From contig JAIPEW010000013.1 of NCBI GenBank assembly GCA_021736985.1, positions 1-64,000 of the forward strand: 64,000 bases of DNA, written 5' to 3'. A program made the translations under genes and the position numbers. This DNA is from Clostridiales bacterium. Its GTDB lineage: Bacteria; Bacillota; Desulfotomaculia; Desulfotomaculales; VENG01. The notes below the pieces were generated by a model that was given only the letters and a program-made list of their open reading frames with translations, did not search any database and was not told the origin of the DNA. This document shows, in pieces, positions 3,239 to 20,962 of the stretch; positions within the stretch are counted from its first letter, which is position 1, and every line of letters begins with the position of its first letter.

Positions 3239-3532
3239 AATAAAATAAAAAGAGTCACTCCTTTCTTTTGCGTCAAAAGTTTAGCCTGCAACTTGGGCAA
3301 AAGAATAGATTTGGCGCAATATGCAAAAAAAAATAATAAACTTAAGAAATGGCAAATGAATTGTAAATTATCATTATCTTTTATTATTTTAGCAAAAGAA
3401 ATATAAGGTTGTCTAGGTAAATTAAAGACTGAAATCTTATTATAACTTGTAATAACACCTTTGTAAACTGCTGTACAGCTTATATTGACACTATTCTTAT
3501 TTATGCATATAATAAATTTAAAATTTAATTAA
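3239..3532. other. divergent AT-rich intergenic region between opuA and the rib operon
   Basis: No gene is visible in these ~290 bases. It contains the opuAA Shine-Dalgarno (GAAAGGAGTGA on the minus strand) and, at its right end, the rib promoter listed separately. The region must also hold the opuA promoter; I could not identify a convincing -35/-10 pair for it. Confidence 0.6.
3485..3513 (+). promoter_or_regulatory. sigma-A-type promoter of the riboflavin operon
   Basis: A perfect -35 TTGACA (3485-3490), a 17-base spacer and a perfect -10 TATAAT (3508-3513) lie just upstream of the FMN riboswitch. Transcription would begin around 3520, immediately before the aptamer. Confidence 0.9.
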
Positions 3533-3656
3533 ACCTTCGGGGATGGGTGAAATTCCTGACCGGCGGTAAGGCTGTAATAAGTCAAGCCCGCGAGCCTGCA
3601 TGGTTGATCCGGTGAAAGTCCGGGGCCGACAGTTAAAGTCTGGAGGGGAGAAGGTT
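3533..3656 (+). promoter_or_regulatory. FMN riboswitch (RFN element)
   Basis: All conserved RFN blocks are present in order: CCTTCGGGGATGGGTGAAATTCC, GACCGGCGGT, AGCCCGCGAGC, TGATCCGGTGAAAGTCCGGGGCCGACAGT, and the closing GAGAAGG that pairs with the opening CCTTC (P1). It controls ribD-ribE-ribBA-ribH downstream and represses on binding FMN. A hairpin at 3703-3723 is the likely expression platform. Confidence 0.97.
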
Positions 3657-3702
3657 TTATACGGGTATACTGTTGTGTGTTGTATGCCTGTGACTAAGTT
3701 TG

Positions 3703-11368: not shown

Positions 11369-12337
11369 TTAGTGCATGTAGTAAGCATATTCGTCTGGAT
11401 TTATCCCCGGGTGAAGCGACATGGAGATACCCCCGGCAATTATTTGTGCGGTACTGTCTATCAAGCTGTCAACTTCCTTGGGAGTGACTGTAAGGTTTCC
11501 ACCAAACGGTTTTACTATTTCCTCTAATGTCTGTCTTATTCTGGGATCGTCTTGACCCGGTTGTGCCATGCTGCCTGTCTTCTTTGCGTACGATTCTACG
11601 GCTTCTTTACAAATAAAGGTAGCATTTACAACTGTAGGTACACCAATTGCTACTACCGGGCAACCCAGTGTTTCCTTATTTATACCGGTGCGCTGGTTGT
11701 TTACTCCTGACCCGGGATTAACTCCAGTGTCTGCTATTTGTATTGTAGTAACAACTCGGTTAATATTGCTTGCTGCAAGTGAATCAATAGCTATTACAAG
11801 TTCAGGCTGTACCCTGTCTACTACGCCTTTTATTATTTCTGCTGTTTCTATTCCCGTAATTCCTAGTACTCCAGGTGATAGAGCACTTACCGGGCGCATT
11901 CCTTCTTGCAATTCCTGCGGAGCATAGTTAAAAAGGTGCCGCGTAACCAGACTGCTGCCTATAACCTTGGGCCCCAGCGCATCCGGGGTTGCGTTCCAAT
12001 TTCCCAGCCCTACAACTAAAACATTTGATTTCATAGAGAGATCAAAAAGTTTGCCCAACTGTTTGCTGAGTATCTCCGTTACCTGTTTATGAGCTTCCTT
12101 ATTATTTTCACGAATTACAGGTGCTTCAATGGTAATATACGCGCCAATAGGTTTGCCCATGATAGCAGCTGCGTGCTCGTTTGTAATATTAACAATGTTT
12201 ACCTCTGCGTGATCATATTTTTCAGAATCTACCCGGGCCCCGGGAATCTCTTGCCCCGTTTCACCCTGTACAACTTCCTTGGCTTCAAGAGCTAAGTCTA
12301 AATTTATCCCTAAAGATTTATAAAAGTTTATATCCAT
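11369..12337 (-). CDS. gpr: GPR endopeptidase (spore protease)
   Basis: Germination protease (peptidase family A25) that degrades small acid-soluble spore proteins when the spore germinates. Family signatures include VGLGNWNATPDALGPKV, the ALSPGVLGITGIET stretch, and a C-terminal MSLHPGINPDEYAYYMH. The N-terminal propeptide region is present. ATG at 12337 is chosen because AAAGGAG sits about 8 bases upstream; the GTG at 12346 overlaps the Shine-Dalgarno. Direct evidence that the organism belongs to an endospore-forming lineage. A sigma-G promoter is expected but I could not define one. Confidence 0.96.
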   Translation of the reverse strand: MDINFYKSLGINLDLALEAKEVVQGETGQEIPGARVDSEKYDHAEVNIVNITNEHAAAIMGKPIGAYITIEAPVIRENNKEAHKQVTEILSKQLGKLFDLSMKSNVLVVGLGNWNATPDALGPKVIGSSLVTRHLFNYAPQELQEGMRPVSALSPGVLGITGIETAEIIKGVVDRVQPELVIAIDSLAASNINRVVTTIQIADTGVNPGSGVNNQRTGINKETLGCPVVAIGVPTVVNATFICKEAVESYAKKTGSMAQPGQDDPRIRQTLEEIVKPFGGNLTVTPKEVDSLIDSTAQIIAGGISMSLHPGINPDEYAYYMH

Positions 12338-12843
12338 CAGCAGCACTCCTTTTAAAAAATAGGTTTAGCTGTTAATAGAAAACTTATACTATTAAAATTG
12401 AATGGATAAGAAAGAATGTCCAATGAAGTTGAAAAAGGCTAATGCGGTAAATGTTTGGGTAGTTCGGGTTGCACATGTAAACCACAAAGCAATTATAGAT
12501 TTACAGCAGTCTTTCTGGTTTTTTGTGGTAACTAAAAATAGTATTCTGTTATCAAAATAAAGGTAATGATTGCAGATATTTAGTTAAATAAGAGTGAAGG
12601 TTTTGAACTAATGACGTAAAATATCGGAAAAAGATTATTTGTATTTGACAATTTTTCCAGGACTAGGAGTAATACCTCTGATATATTATTGAAAAGAAGG
12701 ATGCATTGAAGCGCGGAAATATATTCCTGGGCACTGCAGCCGCGTGGAGCAAATGGTGCAACCGGCCTTCATTAAGGGGGGCTTTTATTTATATGTTAAG
12801 CTCTATCACTAATTTAATACAGTAGTATTGGAGGGGCTTAATT
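12338..12843. other. 500-base intergenic region between gpr and the surface-protein island
   Basis: No supported gene. A 52-codon ORF at 12402-12560 has no Shine-Dalgarno. GC-richer sequence around 12700-12790 (GCACTGCAGCCGCGTGG, ACCGGCCTTCATTAAGG) has small hairpins that I cannot assign to a known riboswitch class. Confidence 0.5.
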
Positions 12844-13542
12844 TTGTATAAGATACGCCTGTTGATTGTTAGCGAAGATTCCTCAGCCGGTCAAGGATTA
12901 GAGACAATATTTTCTACGGAAAATGTTTTTGACATAATCGGTTGTTGTTCTTTTGAAGAAGCTAAAGAAAAAGCGATTTCAGTACAGCCTGATGTAGTAT
13001 TATTAAATGTGTATGATAGTTTTCAAAACTGCAATGAAAAAATTAAGGAAATAAAAAATGGGTGTCCATGCAGCCTGTTATTTGCACTGGTAGGTGAGAA
13101 AGTAGAAAGCCTGGCGGAAGCTATAACAAACGGACTGGATTGCTGTTTGCCTAGAAATATTAGAAGGAGATGCATTGTAAAAGCTGTGGAACTAGCATAT
13201 CGTGCGGGTATTTTCTGTATGCCCGGTTCTTTTAAAAGCTTGGTTTCATTCTTGGGGACAAAAACTTCTCAATCAGAAAGTCAGGTTAAAAATAAAATGC
13301 CTGATGCTGCCAGATCCCTTACCCGTAGGGAAATAGAAATACTGCAGCTGATGGCTAAAAATTACCCCAACCGTAAAATAGCAGGGGAGTTGTTTATCAG
13401 CGAGCCCACTGTAAAGGCACATGTAAGCAGTATTTTGCGCAAGCTAAACCAGGAGACAAGGTCCCAGGCCATAATTTATTCTTATAAAATTGGCCTGGTG
13501 GATGAAGCTAAGACTACATCAGACGGTATTAATACTTATTAA
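12844..13542 (+). CDS. LuxR/NarL-family response regulator with degenerate receiver
   Basis: 232 residues: an N-terminal receiver-like domain (1-125) and a C-terminal LuxR helix-turn-helix (about 155-220, LTRREIEILQLMA...NRKIAGELFISEPTVKAHVSSILRKL). The position normally holding the phospho-accepting Asp is Asn55 (DVVLLNVYD), and the conserved Lys of beta-5 appears replaced by Arg (CLPRN). It is therefore probably phosphorylation-independent or ligand/protein regulated. Starts with TTG after GGAGGGG. It precedes the SipW/camelysin genes on the same strand and is the obvious candidate regulator of that island, which is an inference. Confidence 0.88.
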   Translation: MYKIRLLIVSEDSSAGQGLETIFSTENVFDIIGCCSFEEAKEKAISVQPDVVLLNVYDSFQNCNEKIKEIKNGCPCSLLFALVGEKVESLAEAITNGLDCCLPRNIRRRCIVKAVELAYRAGIFCMPGSFKSLVSFLGTKTSQSESQVKNKMPDAARSLTRREIEILQLMAKNYPNRKIAGELFISEPTVKAHVSSILRKLNQETRSQAIIYSYKIGLVDEAKTTSDGINTY

Positions 13543-13543
13543 T
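13529..13543 (+). repeat. 15-base inverted-repeat partner at the end of the regulator gene
   Basis: TTAATACTTATTAAT here is the exact reverse complement of 13817-13831. Both are AT-rich, so chance is possible; they could be binding sites. Confidence 0.4.
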
Positions 13544-13572
13544 TTTCAAGGTTAGTCAGTTGAATAATAATA

Positions 13573-13617
13573 ATGCGTAAAAAGAAAGACCTTCCAAGCC
13601 GGAGGTCTTTCTTTTTA
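13573..13617 (+). terminator. terminator after the LuxR-family regulator
   Basis: A long near-perfect stem, AAAAAGAAAGACCT with AGGTCTTTCTTTTT around a short loop containing CCAAGCCGG. It separates the regulator transcript from the sipW-camelysin genes and is symmetrical enough to work in both directions. Confidence 0.9.
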
Positions 13618-14040
13618 CGCAGCCTTTTAGCAAACAGATAAAGGAATCTTAAAATTATTTTTCTGGAGATCGGAATCTTCTAGTAAACCTCCCTCACGGT
13701 TGTTAATTCACGACCTATACGCCTTTAGAAGGTAATTTAATACTCTGTTTTTTCTGGAAGAAAGAGCAAAAATGGTGTATGACGAAGGATAAAACATTTA
13801 TTTGACTTTTATTCGTATTAATAAGTATTAAGCAAAGTTTTAAATATTTAGTTATTAAGATTATACCAGTGGATGATGTCAGTAAGTATTAGCTTTGGTA
13901 CTATTTTATTTGTGTAATGGCAGAAGCTGATAATTAAAAAATAATCAGAGATTTATTTTGGAGGTGATTATTCCAATAAAATTTACTTCAGTAATTTAAT
14001 TTAGACATAATTGTTAACTAGCTTTAAAGGGGAGTTGCAA
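13618..14040. other. promoter/leader region upstream of the first signal peptidase gene
   Basis: AT-rich, no gene. It contains TTGACT at 13802-13807 followed about 18 bases later by TATTAA, a weak promoter candidate. Two copies of a TAAGTATTA(A)GC motif (13821-13833 and 13882-13893) may be regulator sites; the first overlaps the 15-base inverted repeat partner at 13817-13831. Confidence 0.45.
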
Positions 14041-14622
14041 ATGAGGTTGATTCTGAAGATTTTAAATATTTGCGTAACTACTATATTGATTTTATTTATT
14101 GTAGCGGCAATTAGTTTGGTTGTATCGGCCCGTTTTTCCAATGATGGGGCTCCTACCGTAAAAGGACATAAGCTGCTAACTGTACTAAGCGGTTCCATGG
14201 AACCTAAAATACACACGGGTGACGCAATAATTATTAAGTCTTTAACCGAAGACAAAAAAATAAAAGAAGGAGACATTATTACATTCCATACTAAGGAGAA
14301 GGAAGATATGCTGATTACTCACCGGGTTGTCGGGGTAGTCAGTGTAAACGGGAAGCCCAGTGCTTATGTTACCAAGGGAGATGCTAATGACTCAAAAGAC
14401 ATGTCTACCGTAAAAAGAGAACAAATAACGGGTACCTATGCGTGGCGAATACCATGTTTCGGCTATGTATCAAATTTTTTTCATAAGCCAATTGGTATTA
14501 TCCTGTGTGTTATTTTACCCGCTTTAGCGATCATTGGCCACGAGTTTTACAAGATATACCAGGCGCTTTCTGAAGAAGAGAAGGCCAAAAAAGAGGTAGA
14601 GGCCCAAGGCCCAGAAAGGTGA
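14041..14622 (+). CDS. SipW-type signal peptidase I (first copy)
   Basis: ER/archaeal-type signal peptidase (S26B). An N-terminal membrane helix (about 5-29) is followed by the nucleophile motif SGSMEP with Ser52, the THRVV motif with His94 in place of the bacterial Lys, and the GDANDSKD box. A second hydrophobic helix lies near the C-terminus, followed by a charged tail. ATG at 14041 is chosen because of AAAGGGGAG. In Bacillus, SipW releases TasA/camelysin proteins that carry special signal peptides; the genes that follow encode such proteins, so this is their probable processing enzyme. Confidence 0.93.
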   Translation: MRLILKILNICVTTILILFIVAAISLVVSARFSNDGAPTVKGHKLLTVLSGSMEPKIHTGDAIIIKSLTEDKKIKEGDIITFHTKEKEDMLITHRVVGVVSVNGKPSAYVTKGDANDSKDMSTVKREQITGTYAWRIPCFGYVSNFFHKPIGIILCVILPALAIIGHEFYKIYQALSEEEKAKKEVEAQGPER

Positions 14623-14654
14623 GACCGGAAAGCATAGTGGAGCTTGAGGTTGTT

Positions 14655-14671
14655 TTTCGTGACGCCCTGGC
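14655..14671 (+). repeat. 17-bp inverted repeat, left copy
   Basis: TTTCGTGACGCCCTGGC, the exact reverse complement of 15948-15964. The pair brackets the first two camelysin genes; a 17-base exact match with GC-rich core in an AT-rich background is unlikely to be chance. Confidence 0.85.
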
Positions 14672-14718
14672 GATGTAATTACTTGAAAGTTTTTTAAATT
14701 TTTTGGGAGGAATTAATA

Positions 14719-15246
14719 ATGAAGAAACGTTTAGTTCTCAGTCTGATGACTGTAGCCGTTGTTGCTCTCCTGGCAAGCGGCGCTACTTTTGCACTTTTTA
14801 CAGCAGAAACTTCTAATGCCGAAAATACCTTTACTGCTGGTACTGTTGCAATCAATGATCCTTTGGAAACAAGTGTAGATATTGGCCCGATGGCCCCTGG
14901 CGATTCCGGTGATGTCGGTGATTGGACTGTTACTTACAGCGGCAACTTGGATGCATGGCTTGGTTTGACAGCTAGTACTTCCGGTGATCTCTTCACTGGG
15001 GAATACCCCGTGGAGATTACCATTTCTAATAATAGTGGTGATAGTTATGATGTAGATGGTACAAAGCAAGTGCTTGGTGAATTTACAGAAAACGAGACAA
15101 TTACTTTAGATGTAGATTACAGCTGGAATGTAGATGCTGATAATACTTACAAGAATGCAGATGGTGAACTGCAGTTGCAAGTATTTGCTGTTCAGTCTAA
15201 AAATAACACTAATTCTGATGGAACAGGTCCGAGTAGTTGGAATTAA
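14719..15246 (+). CDS. camelysin/TasA-like secreted protein 1
   Basis: 175 residues. The N-terminus is a SipW-dependent signal peptide: basic start, hydrophobic core, then GATFALFTAETSNAENTFTAGT, the hallmark of the CalY/TasA family (peptidase M73-type). The rest is an acidic, Asn/Thr/Asp-rich beta-sandwich-like domain without cysteines. In Bacillus such proteins form biofilm fibres or spore/surface layers; the precise role here is unknown. RBS GGGAGGA. A GC-rich hairpin follows the stop codon. Confidence 0.9.
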   Translation: MKKRLVLSLMTVAVVALLASGATFALFTAETSNAENTFTAGTVAINDPLETSVDIGPMAPGDSGDVGDWTVTYSGNLDAWLGLTASTSGDLFTGEYPVEITISNNSGDSYDVDGTKQVLGEFTENETITLDVDYSWNVDADNTYKNADGELQLQVFAVQSKNNTNSDGTGPSSWN

Positions 15247-15290
15247 ATTAGAAAAAGTCCTGCCGCAGGCTAACTGTTAAAGCTTGCGGT

Positions 15291-15310
15291 GGGCCTCATG
15301 AAGGAGGCCC
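15291..15310 (+). promoter_or_regulatory. hairpin sequestering the Shine-Dalgarno of the second camelysin gene
   Basis: GGGCCTC (15291-15297) pairs with GAGGCCC (15304-15310), and the latter includes most of the AAGGAGG Shine-Dalgarno. Translation of the downstream gene should be damped unless the stem is opened. Confidence 0.7.
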
Positions 15311-15313
15311 TAT

Positions 15314-15937
15314 ATGATTAAGAAAAAATTTTTCCTGGCTTTAACAATTGTGTTATGCACGGTGGGGTTAGTGGCAGGGGGAACATTTGCGTTGTTCACT
15401 GACAGTACTTCACCTGCTGATGCCAATTTCACGGCTGGAACGCTTGTGATAACAAATGAACGTGATGCAGGTGATATTGTCCCCGGCCCGATGTTTTATG
15501 TTACTGCAGCTCAAGGTGCCACACCAGATGATGATGATGGCATTTATCCAACCGGTGTATGGGCACCTGGAGATTCTCACATGCGAACATTAACTGTTTA
15601 TAATCACACCCCGTCCACCATGGATGCTTGGCTGGTAAGTTCGGAAGCTAGTATTGAGTCGGGAAACGCAGCTATGGCCGATAAGCTGTGGGTAGAGGTT
15701 TTCCATCCTGAAACGTCAGGTGGTGTTATGACGGATGTGAAGGTAGCAGAAGGAGCGCTGTCTACTTTCTTGACAGGCCCGGTATCCTTTAGTAAAAATT
15801 TACCCTGTATGCTCGGAGGTAATAATCAACTTCACTTTAAGGTTACTTTTGATAAATCCGCGGGTAATAATTTGCAAGGGGAAACATTGAAAGTCGCATT
15901 TAAAGTCAATGCTGAGCAGATGAAAAATAACCCTTAA
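15314..15937 (+). CDS. camelysin/TasA-like secreted protein 2
   Basis: 207 residues. SipW-type signal peptide with GGTFALFTDSTSPADANFTAGT. The body contains the PTGVWAPGDS motif, shared with the third paralogue (16062-16701), and a C-terminal beta-rich part with HFKVTFDKSAGNNLQGETLKVAF, which recurs in both later paralogues (LxGKTLKADF, YQGKTADVYF). This repeated element marks the family. Probably exported, processed by one of the adjacent SipW-type peptidases and assembled on the cell surface; that assembly is inferred. Confidence 0.88.
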   Translation: MIKKKFFLALTIVLCTVGLVAGGTFALFTDSTSPADANFTAGTLVITNERDAGDIVPGPMFYVTAAQGATPDDDDGIYPTGVWAPGDSHMRTLTVYNHTPSTMDAWLVSSEASIESGNAAMADKLWVEVFHPETSGGVMTDVKVAEGALSTFLTGPVSFSKNLPCMLGGNNQLHFKVTFDKSAGNNLQGETLKVAFKVNAEQMKNNP

Positions 15938-15947
15938 TTTTATGCAT

Positions 15948-15964
15948 GCCAGGGCGTCACGAAA
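15948..15964 (-). repeat. 17-bp inverted repeat, right copy
   Basis: GCCAGGGCGTCACGAAA, exact reverse complement of 14655-14671, placed 11 bases after the second camelysin stop codon. Confidence 0.85.
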
Positions 15965-15985
15965 GCCAACCCGGGTAACCCGGGC

Positions 15986-16018
15986 AAAAAAGGGTACTCG
16001 TATACGAGTACCCTTTTT
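15986..16018 (+). terminator. terminator after the second camelysin gene
   Basis: AAAAAGGGTACTCG and CGAGTACCCTTTTT form a long uninterrupted stem with a minimal loop and T-run. Just upstream is a short CCCGGGTAACCCGGG palindrome. It ends the first sipW-camelysin transcript. Confidence 0.9.
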
Positions 16019-16061
16019 ATAAATTAAAATTTAGCATTATTGCTGTATTTCTATTGAGGAG

Positions 16062-16701
16062 ATGAAGCCAGTGAGGCTCAAGCTGGTGTTGGTGGGTATA
16101 TCTATATTTTTGATGTTAGCTGTCGGAGTAGCCGGTGGAAGAACAATGGCCCTGTTTACTGCAAACACTTCAACTATTGAAAATACTTTTACGGCTGAAC
16201 GTATTTCCGTTGTATCTTGGCGGGCTCAGGGGGATTATGTGCCCCATCAACCGCCTGTACAGTGGAATGGTTGGCCGGCGCCTATATTCTATACCACAGA
16301 AGAGGAAGGCGCTTACCATGAAGCGCCTGAAGGTAAATACCCCACCGGTGTATGGGCCCCGGGGGACAGCTGTATTACTAGTCAAAAATGTAGACCCGGA
16401 TTTCATAATTCGGCTTGAAGCATTGAGCGCTAAGCTTTATGGTGATGTAGAAATCGCACCGTGGTTTAAGGTCTCTGTAAGTGACCCTATGAAAAAAGTC
16501 TTGTATAGAGGGACATTATCAGAACTGGCAAATAGTCCACAAAATCTTAAAGACTGGTCAAGCAAAAAAAGCTTTTTGCGTATGGAAGGCTACAGTGAGC
16601 AGAAACTTGTATTTAAAGTCACCCTGGACCGGGCGGCAGCAAGCTCACTGCAGGGGAAAACTCTAAAAGCTGATTTTACAGTGCATGTCGGTCAGGACTG
16701 A
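16062..16701 (+). pseudogene. camelysin-like gene 3 with a +1 frameshift
   Basis: The first frame gives a SipW-type signal (GRTMALFTANTSTIENTFTAE) and runs to YPTGVWAPGD, then loses homology and stops at 16418. The next frame restores family sequence (VLLVKNVDPDFIIRLEAL ... LQGKTLKADFTVHVG) and ends at 16701. Removing one base in the CCCCGGGGG run at about 16367-16375 joins the two into one ~210-residue paralogue of the preceding protein. The GTG at 16071 has better Shine-Dalgarno spacing than the ATG at 16062. Either a real pseudogene/slippage site or a base-call error. Confidence 0.85.
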
Positions 16702-16766
16702 AACAGGCCTTAAAGTGAAAGATAAAATTTTACTGCTTATTAACTGCAATGGGTTGGTGATAAAAA

Positions 16767-17431
16767 GTGGTATTTAGGAATAATGTTTTAGTTATAGCAG
16801 CAACTATTTTTATTTCAGTATTGCCGGTACTTTTGCATCCAATTTGGACAGCAGTAATTTTGATAGTGAAGAATCTGGAGCGGGATTAGAACTGGGCACC
16901 CTTGCCCCTGATGAACAGCAGATATATACTTTAACTGTTTATTTCCCCGAAGGCTCAGGAAATGATTACCAGGGAAAAACAGCAGATGTCTACTTTGTTT
17001 TTAATGCCCGGGGACATAATAAAGATGTCGAACCGGGAACAGGTGCTGTATTCGAGCATCCCTTTATTAACAACAACTTCGCCTTGCGGATGAACAGCAC
17101 GGTGCCCATCAAGTTTTACCTGGTAAAGGAAGACGGCACATACGATAATATGCGGCGCGATGTGGACCTGGTGATTACCGGGCCGGACGCTGAAGGCAAC
17201 CCGCAGGAGATTGTTTTTAACCGGTCCAACGAAAATCTTAAATTTCTCGGAGAATTAAATAAACCGTACTACATGGCTTTGCTGTCATCCTTTGATTATT
17301 CACTTAAAGTAGGCGAGGAATACACTGCAGTTGTAAAGTCGGGGGACGAAGTACTGGCTACCAGGGATTTTAATGTAAATGAAGATCTGGTACCAGCAGA
17401 AGCAACAGTCCTTAATAACAGGAAGTATTAA
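16767..17431 (+). pseudogene. camelysin-like gene 4 with a -1 frameshift in the signal peptide
   Basis: From GTG 16767 one frame encodes a signal peptide (VVFRNNVLVIAATIFISVL) and then runs out of frame; the other frame resumes with AGTFASNLDSSNFDSE and continues to 17431. Adding one G at TTGCCGG (about 16821-16827) gives a single protein of about 221 residues. The mature part has a camelysin-like strand region (DYQGKTADVYFVFNA) and then a distinct C-terminal domain, after PGTGAVFEHPF, with VPIKFYLVKEDG, resembling ligand or anchor domains of Firmicute surface proteins. A TTG at 16844 could start a truncated form but would lack a signal peptide. Confidence 0.82.
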
Positions 17432-17540
17432 TACCAGTCGTATTATCCCTTGATACGGGTATTATATACTTTATACCCGCGTCTAATATTACTTGCTGGT
17501 TTGTTTTGTTATATTTAAACCAGTGTTTTGGGTGAGCATT

Positions 17541-18143
17541 ATGAACTTTTTAAAAACAATTAAATGGTTGTTTAACATAATACTCATAATGGTATTTACC
17601 ACTGTGTCCATGGTGTTTATAAATGGCTGGCTGGAAAAAGACAATCCCAGGTATGTACCAGGAATTGGGTGTTATAAAGTAGTTTCTGTTTTGAGCGACA
17701 GCATGAAGCCGGTGATGTATGCGGGGGATGCCATTATAGTAGACCGCAGTAAGCTTACTAACTTGCAAAAAGGAGACATTATTACATACTGGCGGGCCAA
17801 TAATGCTCGTTCTTTGATGACGCACCGCATCGTTGATACTGGGAAAAGGAACGGAGAGGAAGTGTTTTATACCAGGGGCGACGCCAACGATGTTGTGGAC
17901 GGCGACCCTGTTTCTAGGGATAATATCGTGGGGAAGTACGGTTTTTGTATCCCTTATGGTGGTTATTGTATAGGCTTTTTACATACTAAGGCAGGGTTTT
18001 TATTGCTAATAATGTTTCCAGTTTTGCTGGCCCTGGGGTTGGAAGCTAGAAAAATTTACCGAGAATCGAGGGCTGGTTGGTTTAAAAAGAAGCGTAATGA
18101 GCCGGAAATGAATGATAGGAGGTTGGATTATGTTAAAAAGTAA
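17541..18143 (+). CDS. SipW-type signal peptidase I (second copy)
   Basis: 200 residues. N-terminal membrane helix, nucleophile motif SDSMKP with Ser54, THRIV with His95, GDANDVVDGD box, and a second hydrophobic segment near the C-terminus. The SGSMEP of the first copy is changed to SDSMKP here, so the two enzymes are clearly diverged and may prefer different clients. ATG at 17541 is chosen for the GGGTGAG just upstream. Overlaps the start of the following camelysin-like gene, implying coupling. Confidence 0.92.
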   Translation: MNFLKTIKWLFNIILIMVFTTVSMVFINGWLEKDNPRYVPGIGCYKVVSVLSDSMKPVMYAGDAIIVDRSKLTNLQKGDIITYWRANNARSLMTHRIVDTGKRNGEEVFYTRGDANDVVDGDPVSRDNIVGKYGFCIPYGGYCIGFLHTKAGFLLLIMFPVLLALGLEARKIYRESRAGWFKKKRNEPEMNDRRLDYVKK

Positions 18144-19185
18144 ATTGCTATTGTTTATAGGGTTAACAGCGCTAATGTTGTTTAGCTTGTCTGCCGGTTC
18201 ATACGCCTTGTTCAGCAGCGAGGCTATTAGCTCTGGGAATACGGTCAGCGCCGGTACCCTTTATATAGGTGGAGAAAATGGTAATAAAGGTATGCTGGAT
18301 AAAACTATCAAGCTGGAGAATATGCTGCCGGGCGGCGAGCAGGGAGAAGCAGTGTTTAAAATAAAAAATCTGGGGTCTATGAAGGTTTATATAAACGGTA
18401 TTTCCGTGAATATAAAGGAAAGTCGTGAAAAATTCTTGAGCAATGCTCTATCGACCAGGTGTTTTGAAGGTAATAATCTTCTATACCAGGGTTCACTCCT
18501 GGCGCTAGATAGCAATGTGGTGCCGCTTGATAAATATATTGTTTTAGAACCCGGTGAAACAACTGCACTTGATTTCTCTATTCAACTGGATGAAATGGTA
18601 AGCAATTGGTACAAGGGAAAGAATATTGAGTTTTCCCTCACCGTTTACGCGGCGCAGCGCCCGGATCAGGAAGTAGGTAAATGGGCGCTAATACCGGATA
18701 AAGATAAAGTACCTTCTGTAGTAAAAAATGCCGAGCCGGGCGATACTGTGCTGGTTCCGGCTGGAGAGTACGGTCGCCTTAGTGTGAAACCGGGAGTAAC
18801 TGTAAAAGCAAAAGATGTTATTTATAACACTGTAGTAAAAGAATTTATAGTGTCCCCTGGTGCAAGTAAAGTTCAGGCAAGAACAGCAAAAGCAAAAAGG
18901 AACGTTACTTTATTGCAGGGATTTACAATAAACAGTCCGGCCTGTGGTATAAAAGTACAGTCCAGCCAGAATTGTAAGGTTTTGGATAATATTATCAATT
19001 CTTCTGATAATCCTTTAAAAGTTAATGGGGCAGGTAAGGTTTTATTATCCAGGAATGATATGACCGGTTGTTTTGATAAAAACTTTGGTAAGAAAAATAT
19101 CTCAACAAAAAAGGCTGGCAAGAACAAGATACAGTTTGATTATAACCTGGGTGTTGATCTAAAGCCGGAAGATCATGCATTATAA
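18130..19185 (+). CDS. camelysin-like protein with C-terminal beta-helix region
   Basis: 351 residues. SipW-type signal peptide ends with GSYALFSSEAISSGNTVSAGT; a camelysin-like beta domain follows to about residue 180. The remainder starts with AEPGDTVLVPAGEYGRLSVKPGVTVKA and continues with short repeats (GIKVQSSQNCKVLDNIINSSDNP, VLLSRNDMTG) typical of right-handed parallel beta-helix proteins. This suggests a polysaccharide-binding or stalk module fused to a fibre-type domain; there is no visible lyase active site. RBS AGGAGGT lies inside the end of the preceding gene. Translationally coupled to the second signal peptidase. Confidence 0.85.
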   Translation: MLKSKLLLFIGLTALMLFSLSAGSYALFSSEAISSGNTVSAGTLYIGGENGNKGMLDKTIKLENMLPGGEQGEAVFKIKNLGSMKVYINGISVNIKESREKFLSNALSTRCFEGNNLLYQGSLLALDSNVVPLDKYIVLEPGETTALDFSIQLDEMVSNWYKGKNIEFSLTVYAAQRPDQEVGKWALIPDKDKVPSVVKNAEPGDTVLVPAGEYGRLSVKPGVTVKAKDVIYNTVVKEFIVSPGASKVQARTAKAKRNVTLLQGFTINSPACGIKVQSSQNCKVLDNIINSSDNPLKVNGAGKVLLSRNDMTGCFDKNFGKKNISTKKAGKNKIQFDYNLGVDLKPEDHAL

Positions 19186-19217
19186 TTTTTCATTCTACAG
19201 CAAGGGGGGGATAAAAA

Positions 19218-20639
19218 GTGCATGATACCAGGATAAATCGCCTGCAAAAACGACGAAAAAGCAGGAAAAAAAGATTGCTGAGGATAGCGGTAGCAACTAT
19301 ATATGTTTGTATTTTAACTCTGGCCGGGTTTAGTTTAAACGGTACTTATTCCATTTACAATACTCTGGCCCGGGCCCCGACCGGATATGCCGGTACGGTT
19401 GATTCAGAGGACATTATAGATGTAAAAAATGATTTTGATTGTAATAACTGGTTAAACAGCTTGCAAAGTCATGATATTGAAAGTGGTTTAACGATTAAAA
19501 ATCAATCACCTGGTAGTATGTGGGTTTATTTTACAATCAAAGGTTCATTAAGTGAATTTGTACAGCACCTTAATCCCACGTACTTGAAACCTGGAGAAAC
19601 TTATGAACTTCCTGTGCGCCTTTCTAACGTTAGTATGGATGAATTAAATGAACTGGGGTTATTAGGCTGGAAGAATAGGAATAAAACTTTTTCTGGTAAG
19701 GTTGTAGCAAGGGTATTAAACAACTATTCTCATTATGTGGTAGGCAGTATTAAAGTAGACGGGGAAGATATATACGATGTGCTGGTTAATGAAGAATCAA
19801 ATAAGGAGTCTGTAAATAAAATAAGCAGTATAGTGTCGATAGATGATCCAGAAGAACAAATCAGAAGAATTAAGTCAGTTAAAGGTATATTTCAGCTGAT
19901 TGCTGAAAAAAACTTTTTATTTTTAGAACGTAATGAGTTGGAAGAAGAAAATAAACAATTGGTTGAACAAAAAGAAATTTTAATAGACCAGAACAAAGAA
20001 CTTGTTGAAGATAATGAAAGGTTAGAGGACGAAGTTGATCACCTTGAAGGGCATGTTTATTCTCTTCACCAGAGCTTGAACAACACTCAATCAAAACTTA
20101 AAAAGTTAAAAAAGGAGAATAAAAAGGACCCAAAAGGTGAGGCTGCACCTGAAGGTGATGAGAATCAAGAGGATAAACCCAACGATGATAAGCAGCAAAA
20201 GGACTCCAATAATGAAGATAAACAAAGTAAGGAAAAAGATAATGATAAAGATGTAGGTGAAGACAAAGACAAAGACTCAGATAAAACCCGTGATAATAAA
20301 AAAAATGAGGAAGGGCAAGATTCCGGAGAAAGTATATCTAATGCAGGTAATAACAAAGATGGGGAATGTACTACTAAGAAAGAAAATGAAGAGAATTCGG
20401 GAAATGAAATGCAGGATAGCAAAGGAAATAAAGCAGGTGGCGATCAAAATTTAGATGATAATAAAGAAAACAAGGAAGGGCAAGAGGGTAAATCTAATAC
20501 AGGTAATACTGAAGGCGAGGATTGCGGTACGACTAAAAGTAATGATGACAATCCAGACGATGATGCACAGGATAGCAAAGAAAAAGTAAATGATAATAAA
20601 ACTTCGGATGAAGATTCTCAAGATGTCACTTCAGAATAA
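19218..20639 (+). CDS. membrane-anchored coiled-coil protein with long acidic low-complexity tail
   Basis: 473 residues, unknown function. A very basic N-terminus is followed by a hydrophobic segment (about 22-43) and GTYSIYNTL...YAGTVDSEDI, a degenerate SipW-type signal. A globular beta-rich region (to ~190) resembles the camelysin neighbours. Residues about 225-300 are a Glu/Lys/Leu coiled coil. The last ~165 residues are extremely charged (Asp, Glu, Lys, Asn) with two imperfect ~55-residue repeats, each with a single Cys and a QDSK end. Starts with GTG seven bases after a run of seven G. It may be a cell-surface anchor or spacer for the fibres; this is a guess. Confidence 0.8.
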   Translation: MHDTRINRLQKRRKSRKKRLLRIAVATIYVCILTLAGFSLNGTYSIYNTLARAPTGYAGTVDSEDIIDVKNDFDCNNWLNSLQSHDIESGLTIKNQSPGSMWVYFTIKGSLSEFVQHLNPTYLKPGETYELPVRLSNVSMDELNELGLLGWKNRNKTFSGKVVARVLNNYSHYVVGSIKVDGEDIYDVLVNEESNKESVNKISSIVSIDDPEEQIRRIKSVKGIFQLIAEKNFLFLERNELEEENKQLVEQKEILIDQNKELVEDNERLEDEVDHLEGHVYSLHQSLNNTQSKLKKLKKENKKDPKGEAAPEGDENQEDKPNDDKQQKDSNNEDKQSKEKDNDKDVGEDKDKDSDKTRDNKKNEEGQDSGESISNAGNNKDGECTTKKENEENSGNEMQDSKGNKAGGDQNLDDNKENKEGQEGKSNTGNTEGEDCGTTKSNDDNPDDDAQDSKEKVNDNKTSDEDSQDVTSE

Positions 20640-20728
20640 TAGAAATAATGATGATGAAAAAGTGAAAAGCAACTAGGCCATACATTTTATTTTTTAGATA
20701 ATAATTTGTCTGTTCGGGGGGAGTTTAA

Positions 20729-20920
20729 TTGTATCAAAAAACTTGTCCTTACTGTAACGGTAAATCATATTCTGCTTCAGTGCAAGGAGAGTGGCGGTGT
20801 CCTTATTGTTTAGCTGATTTATCCGGTGTGATTCCTTATCCACCTGTTAATGATGAAGAATCAAAAAATGCTGCAGTTAATAAACCTTTAGATACCAGGT
20901 CAAAGATTGTGAATATATAA
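20729..20920 (+). CDS. small zinc-ribbon-like protein
   Basis: 63 residues with two CPYC knuckles (CPYC at 6-9 and again at about 24-27), the pattern of a rubredoxin-like zinc ribbon, followed by a Pro/Asn-rich tail. Start TTG after GGGGGGAG. It is the last gene of the surface-protein island, before a strong terminator. No function can be assigned; a regulatory or assembly role in the island is possible. Confidence 0.7.
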   Translation: MYQKTCPYCNGKSYSASVQGEWRCPYCLADLSGVIPYPPVNDEESKNAAVNKPLDTRSKIVNI

Positions 20921-20937
20921 AGAAGATAAACCGGTTA

Positions 20938-20962
20938 CCCTGCATTATGCAGGGATTTTTTT
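20938..20962 (+). terminator. terminator ending the surface-protein island
   Basis: CCCTGCA (20938-20944) pairs with TGCAGGG (20948-20954) and is followed by a run of seven T. Confidence 0.9.

Follow-up and report, generated by a model that had tools for sequence, protein, structure and literature searches.

Contig JAIPEW010000013.1 of a Clostridiales bacterium (assembly GCA_021736985.1; host genome, 2.84 Mb) was analyzed over positions 1 to 64,000, a stretch of 64,000 nucleotides referred to here as the window. It carries an island on the plus strand at 12690-20954 that we interpret, with a probability of about two in three, as a locus for TasA-type fibres gated by cyclic di-GMP (c-di-GMP) and equipped with two conserved partner proteins beyond the tapA-sipW-tasA set. 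The island starts 1.3 kb upstream of the tract (14041-20920) singled out by an earlier, sequence-only reading, with a class II c-di-GMP riboswitch (c-di-GMP-II) and a LuxR/NarL-type regulator gene, and comprises the following features.

12690-12776, plus strand: c-di-GMP-II riboswitch aptamer (RF01786; 54.9 bits, gathering threshold 53.5)
12764-12790, plus strand: intrinsic terminator, its 5' arm being the 3' strand of aptamer P1; predicted c-di-GMP ON switch
12844-13542, plus strand: LuxR/NarL-type DNA-binding regulator with a TTG start (GerE PF00196, 66.6 bits)
13572-13622, both strands: bidirectional hairpin terminator ending the regulator transcript (from sequence)
14041-14622, plus strand: sipW1, S26B signal peptidase with Ser/His (TIGR02228, 118.5 bits)
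14719-15246, plus strand: tasA1, TasA/camelysin-family secreted protein (PF12389 and TIGR04088 above cut-off)
15314-15937, plus strand: tasA2, TasA/camelysin-family secreted protein (PF12389 and TIGR04088 above cut-off)
15992-16019, plus strand: intrinsic terminator after tasA2, a perfect hairpin with a T-run (GGGTACTCGTATACGAGTACCC TTTTT)
16062-16701, plus strand: tasA3, decayed, with intact signal and a frameshift after PGDS near 16371 (TIGR04088, 19.5-19.8 bits, cut-off 19)
about 16765-17431, plus strand: fourth tasA-like remnant joined to an unrelated C-terminal domain (no Pfam or NCBIfam match)
17541-18143, plus strand: sipW2, second S26B signal peptidase (TIGR02228, 110.2 bits; 14 bp overlap with the next gene)
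18130-19185, plus strand: camelysin-domain plus beta-helix protein (profiles, hhalign)
19218-20639, plus strand: secreted or anchored coiled-coil protein with an acidic tail (sequence, PDB profiles, model)
20729-20920, plus strand: small zinc-ribbon protein, CPYC...CPYC (family search)
20938-20954, plus strand: final intrinsic terminator (terminator scan)

The riboswitch was recognized by its covariance model, and the 5' arm of the terminator in its expression platform lies inside the aptamer; the terminator score was reached by four of 200 shuffled sequences. As the 3' strand of the aptamer and the 5' arm of the terminator are the same segment, ligand binding is predicted to allow transcription, and the leader is thus predicted from its sequence to be a c-di-GMP ON switch. 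The host genome encodes six strong and two weaker GGDEF matches. A same-strand c-di-GMP riboswitch was found within 5 kb upstream of SipW in 12 of the 33 SipW-bearing genomes of the order against 0.18 expected from genome-wide riboswitch counts, a comparison that is descriptive rather than an exact probability because related genomes are not independent, and that is further tempered by the general preference of c-di-GMP riboswitches for surface genes.

The arrangement of these riboswitches took several forms. Class II elements precede the regulator in the window, G001 and G187, and stand directly upstream of sipW in G139, in G284 (in tandem) and, below threshold, in G480. Class I elements (c-di-GMP-I) were found before the orthologous regulator in G015, G021, G025, G011, G038 and G073, with scores of only 36-42 bits, and 108-237 bp before sipW in G107, G098, G104, G090 and G105. 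The riboswitch class was apparently swapped before the same regulator gene, and the low-scoring elements before the regulator are perhaps a diverged class I variant. At the level of single loci, class I elements of 36-42 bits precede regulator orthologues in L044, L111, L113, L119, L120 and L123, and the window has class II at this place. Tandem c-di-GMP-I-GGC riboswitches were also seen about 1-1.5 kb before sipW (L179, 6265-6536; L181, 11985-12257), besides the tandem c-di-GMP-II elements. Among the leaders examined, the 3' strand of the aptamer coincides with the 5' arm of the terminator in each of the nine of class II and in most of those of class I, and at most four of 200 shuffles reached the observed terminator score in 14 of 16 leaders, with more in G021 and G025.

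The regulator following the riboswitch has a LuxR-type helix-turn-helix domain. In an alignment of 19 relatives its phospho-acceptor Asp is replaced by Asn, the Asp being kept in 17 of the 18 others, and no Pfam receiver domain was matched in the window protein. As the phospho-acceptor is lost, control through the amount of the regulator, set by the riboswitch, rather than through phosphorylation is plausible.

The two signal peptidases scored above the TIGR02228 cut-off of 51.85 bits and below that of the Bacillus SipW equivalog NF046067 (159.8 and 103.5 bits against 190). They carry the catalytic motifs SGSMEP/THR (SipW1) and SDSMKP/THR (SipW2), and the SM...THR signature was present in all nine aligned peptidases. 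In the phylogenetic tree, sipW1 and sipW2 formed separate, well-supported clades, and sipW2 grouped with G015_2 at 100/100, ruling out a recent duplication. Both SipW-type peptidases of the host genome lie within the island. sipW2 overlaps the beta-helix gene by 14 bp, which suggests that a dedicated peptidase and its substrate are coupled in translation. As a separate observation, S26B-domain proteins of approximately 390-410 amino acids, often near LuxR-type genes and small proteins with a WSD-type signal, were seen in L111, L122, L124, L126, L129-L131, L138 and L143.

The camelysin family PF12389 was matched by tasA1 and tasA2 with 32.7 and 34.8 bits (gathering threshold, 22.5) and the SipW-substrate signal TIGR04088 with 22.7 and 23.8 bits. 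In the host genome, TIGR04088 signals were found only in tasA1, tasA2 and the broken tasA3, all within the island; the beta-helix protein stayed below both thresholds (16.4 and 12.0 bits), and the acidic protein had no TIGR04088 match. The B. subtilis TasA equivalog NF046066 was not reached (13.7 and 15.5 bits against 450). A profile built from seven tasA1 homologues matched B. subtilis TasA in the PDB (8aur, 5of1) at E 1e-8. The same profile reached archaeal AbpX at E 0.003-0.006. AbpA and AbpX are archaeal proteins, and their gene neighbourhoods differ from that of the island. Distant profile or fold matches link tasA1 and tasA2 to these bundling pili (PDB 7ueg, 9sj2, 9rhp). Homology of tasA2 to tasA1 was given by hhalign at 99.6%. 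The AlphaFold model of tasA2 had a mean pLDDT (predicted local distance difference test) of 62, with residues 80-204 mostly at 70-93, and is consistent with the TasA fold without proving it.

The further copies are damaged. Aligned to tasA2, tasA3 changes reading frame after PGDS, where about eight bases are missing by eye, which makes a simple homopolymer sequencing error unlikely. In the fourth copy, fragments of the signal region and the final strands of the camelysin domain survive, and most of that domain is gone. This leaves two intact plain TasA paralogues and, in addition, the beta-helix fusion.

At its N-terminus, the beta-helix protein has a domain homologous to tasA1 (hhalign, 99.1%). 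Its beta-helix part matched inulin fructotransferases, which are beta-helix enzymes, at E 0.003, and the Pfam Beta_helix family weakly; members of this family share a near-invariant C-terminal tail of the YNLGVDLDPEEHAL type. The coiled-coil protein consists, in order, of a basic N-terminus, a hydrophobic segment, a conserved N-terminal domain, a coiled coil recognized by PDB profiles and a structure model, and an acidic disordered tail with a net charge of -28. Neither its tail nor any of its homologues contains LPxTG, and sortase anchoring was rejected on this ground; hhalign gave no clear link of its N-terminal domain to the TasA fold (4.9%; poor single-sequence model). No island protein matched a TapA family in Pfam or NCBIfam. 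The zinc-ribbon protein has relatives adjoining LuxR or SipW genes in G187, G031 and G066; members of this small family stand beside a LuxR regulator or SipW in four genomes (window, 20729-20920; L182, 2603-2755; L112, 9827-10030; L130, 5936-6160).

The terminator at 15992-16019 lies between tasA2 and tasA3, and therefore the genes do not form one transcription unit. Together with the hairpin at 13572-13622 it ruled out a single operon ending at 20938, and as read from these terminators there are at least two transcription units downstream of the regulator in the tract. An Rfam match to mir-2058 was merely a terminator hairpin. With respect to gene content, the sequence-only reading had described two diverged S26B peptidases (SGSMEP/His and SDSMKP/His), and this was borne out by the family scores, the retained motifs and the separate clades; the camelysin/beta-helix, coiled-coil acidic-tail and zinc-ribbon genes that it had listed were likewise present. 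Its four camelysin-like genes with an ALFT...NTFTAGT signal were reduced to two intact ones, since tasA3 has the signal but is frameshifted and the signal of the fourth is broken. The clustering on one strand ahead of a terminator held, but not the notion of four working paralogues in one unit. The riboswitch and the LuxR/NarL regulator farther upstream had escaped that reading.

Syntenic relatives of the island were found in at least five other genomes of several families, at differing chromosomal sites: G015, G019, G187 and G140, and partially G348, of which G187, G140 and G348 are outside the order. The beta-helix and coiled-coil partners are 40-55% identical in G015, G019, G187 and G140. 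G015 holds LuxR, a receiver-only gene, sipW1 (68%), tasA1 (74%), tasA2, sipW2 (55%) and the beta-helix gene (55%) before the contig ends, as well as an apparent broken extra tasA copy next to the intact ones. G019 has LuxR, the receiver-only gene, sipW1 (68%), tasA1, tasA2 (79%), the beta-helix and the coiled-coil genes, without sipW2; a remnant of the receiver-only gene was looked for in the window and none was found. G187 has the riboswitch, zinc ribbon, LuxR, sipW, tasA1, tasA2 and beta-helix genes in one contiguous run; another of its contigs carries beta-helix and coiled-coil genes at the edge. Parts of the cluster occur in G140 and G348. In the distant genomes G284, G139 and G480, sipW is followed by tasA and a camelysin fusion, and the coiled-coil protein also occurs in G284 and G480. 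The sister genus, G001, has no SipW and has kept the riboswitch and the regulator. By eye, the neighbours are a PHP-type phosphatase in G015/G019, proAB/obg in G140 and pyrG in G284, and this variation of the flanking genes between families suggests that the island moved horizontally or was relocated.

Among other observations on these loci, a secreted papain-like protein of 1188 amino acids is encoded on the opposite strand between tasA2 and sipW2 in G015 (L044, 2326-5892), and G019 holds a different insertion at that site. A SipW island of another type, carrying a pair of SipW genes together with several SipW-signal proteins of the 'FAKYTSEY' kind, was seen in L047, L048 and L050 (G107, G098 and G093); L047 and L048 contain c-di-GMP-I riboswitches, and the fragments L049/L146 appear to be of a similar type. 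Elsewhere in the window, a flavin mononucleotide (FMN) riboswitch at 3529-3659 upstream of a riboflavin operon (ribD, ribE, ribBA, ribH) is ordinary.

From these results the following route is proposed. High c-di-GMP is predicted to bind the class II riboswitch, stabilize P1 and block the overlapping terminator, so that the LuxR/NarL regulator is made. The regulator would activate the sipW1-tasA1-tasA2 unit and the sipW2-beta-helix-coiled-coil unit. SipW1 and SipW2, judging from their family, would cleave camelysin-type signal peptides outside the membrane, and TasA1 and TasA2 would polymerize into extracellular fibres, probably by strand exchange like TasA. For the camelysin-beta-helix protein, the most likely role is that of an adhesin or tip on the fibre, SipW2 being the peptidase coupled to it, and for the coiled-coil acidic-tail protein that of an anchor or assembly factor standing in for TapA or CapP.

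Several points weigh against this interpretation. The riboswitch in the window scores barely above threshold and has the weakest terminator among the class II leaders, and the riboswitch scan gave nothing above threshold in G019 and G140. The best PDB match of the tasA2 model, a TasA fibre, was weak (E 1.1e-3; template modelling score, 0.44), and the N-terminal domain of the coiled-coil protein yielded no usable model from the single sequence. The regulator transcript stops at its own terminator, so the regulator could act on the island only in trans; a regulator-binding site shared upstream of sipW1 was sought in the window, G015 and G019, and none including the window was found. G001, G025, G011 and G038 have LuxR orthologues with c-di-GMP riboswitches and no SipW close by, so the regulator has other targets. 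As no common site including the window was found and many orthologues are far from SipW, the link between regulator and fibres in the window is drawn from their neighbourhood and from G187. It is conceivable, if unlikely, that the fibre island is real and the riboswitch-LuxR unit, its position incidental, mainly governs other genes such as those for the S-layer, pili or motility. This would account for the riboswitch-bearing orthologues in genomes without SipW, including the sister genus, for the terminator after the regulator and for the missing upstream motif, but not readily for the single run of riboswitch, regulator and fibre genes in G187, nor for the riboswitches placed directly before sipW in G139, G284 and G480 or, as class I elements, 108-237 bp from it in G107, G098, G104, G090 and G105. 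In G001, the regulator must, on this gene arrangement, have other targets; its riboswitch and LuxR orthologue (L046, 5300-6144) were seen near an exosortase-like gene and an S-layer-homology protein, without SipW/TasA.

The nature of the structure was also considered. Annotations also list TasA as a spore coat-associated protein, and the upstream neighbour at 11369-12346 resembles, by eye, the germination protease gpr, but the unrelated contexts of the island elsewhere (G015/G019, G140, G284) and a c-di-GMP ON switch, which would better suit the matrix of sessile cells, make a spore-surface or exosporium structure, in place of a biofilm or vegetative-cell fibre, rather improbable. Slightly less probable still is an island in decay without a working fibre in this organism: the frameshifted tasA3, the remnant fourth copy, the loss of an Asp that nearly all relatives keep and the absence of SipW from the sister genus would fit, but both peptidases, tasA1, tasA2 and the beta-helix and coiled-coil genes have kept their full length and are well conserved compared with relatives, and G015 too has its broken extra tasA beside intact copies. 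That the camelysin-like proteins are secreted metalloproteases, as the Pfam name Peptidase_M73 of the PF12389 family matched by tasA1 and tasA2 would imply, is very improbable, as no HExxH motif occurs in tasA1, tasA2 or the beta-helix protein and the PDB relatives are fibre subunits. The c-di-GMP-gated fibre island is thus preferred. More tentatively, and with somewhat less than even chances, the comparison points to two unrelated c-di-GMP riboswitch classes having been recruited repeatedly to switch on TasA/SipW-type matrix fibres in this branch of anaerobic Firmicutes, the loci encoding a fibre type of their own, marked by a conserved adhesin that joins camelysin and beta-helix parts, a signal peptidase coupled to that adhesin, and an anchor with a coiled coil.

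Known systems share parts of this organization. As in tapA-sipW-tasA of B. subtilis (PMC9674648, PMC10151520), a SipW-type peptidase stands beside TasA-family proteins with the same signal type, and the tasA1 profile recognizes TasA structures. In contrast, the island has two SipW lineages, two intact TasA paralogues and no TapA model match, its partners are the beta-helix fusion and the coiled-coil acidic-tail protein, and the SinR circuit described for B. subtilis is replaced by a c-di-GMP riboswitch and a LuxR regulator. The sipW-bsaABCRSD locus of C. perfringens (PMC7395162) is likewise a multi-gene SipW fibre locus, found in an anaerobic Firmicute; it includes a response regulator of its own, and a terminator follows its first fibre gene. 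It requires the two-component pair BsaS/BsaR and its expression follows temperature (PMC7395162), whereas the island has no adjacent kinase, a regulator lacking the phosphorylation Asp and a c-di-GMP riboswitch ahead, the accessory proteins being compared by description. B. cereus sipW-tasA/calY/CapP (PMC13082335, PMC4292775) resembles the island in two TasA paralogues in one region and a separate assembly factor, CapP being likened by description only, and differs in one SipW, SinR control and no described beta-helix fusion. The sequence-only reading had expected an assembly larger than tapA-sipW-tasA and possibly undescribed. The larger size was supported by the match of the tasA1 profile to TasA, the homology of the beta-helix N-terminal domain to tasA1 and the retention of both partners in syntenic clusters of other families, and related genomes held linked clusters rather than isolated camelysin genes only; a wholly new assembly was not supported, as the island belongs with the known TasA-type systems.

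Riboswitches for c-di-GMP upstream of surface-structure genes have precedents, one before a collagen adhesin of B. thuringiensis (PMC4933901) and tandem class II elements before surface-anchor genes (PMC9481103); the targets there are adhesins or anchor proteins, and here SipW/TasA-type fibre loci and a transcriptional regulator. In the open-access papers searched, no link between a c-di-GMP riboswitch and SipW, TasA or camelysin was found. In B. subtilis, the best-studied Gram-positive model, TasA is under the SinR circuit. That related clusters repeatedly lie behind a c-di-GMP riboswitch points to a direct route, in a group of anaerobic bacteria, by which this 'settle down' signal leads to surface fibres. 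Two conserved partner proteins emerge as well, a candidate adhesin or tip and a candidate anchor or assembly factor, with roles open to direct testing, and the question arises of why one island needs two signal peptidases. If true, the switching on of TasA-type fibres by c-di-GMP at the RNA level, through either riboswitch class and in many anaerobes, would join the biofilm logic of Gram-negative bacteria to the main protein matrix of Gram-positive bacteria.

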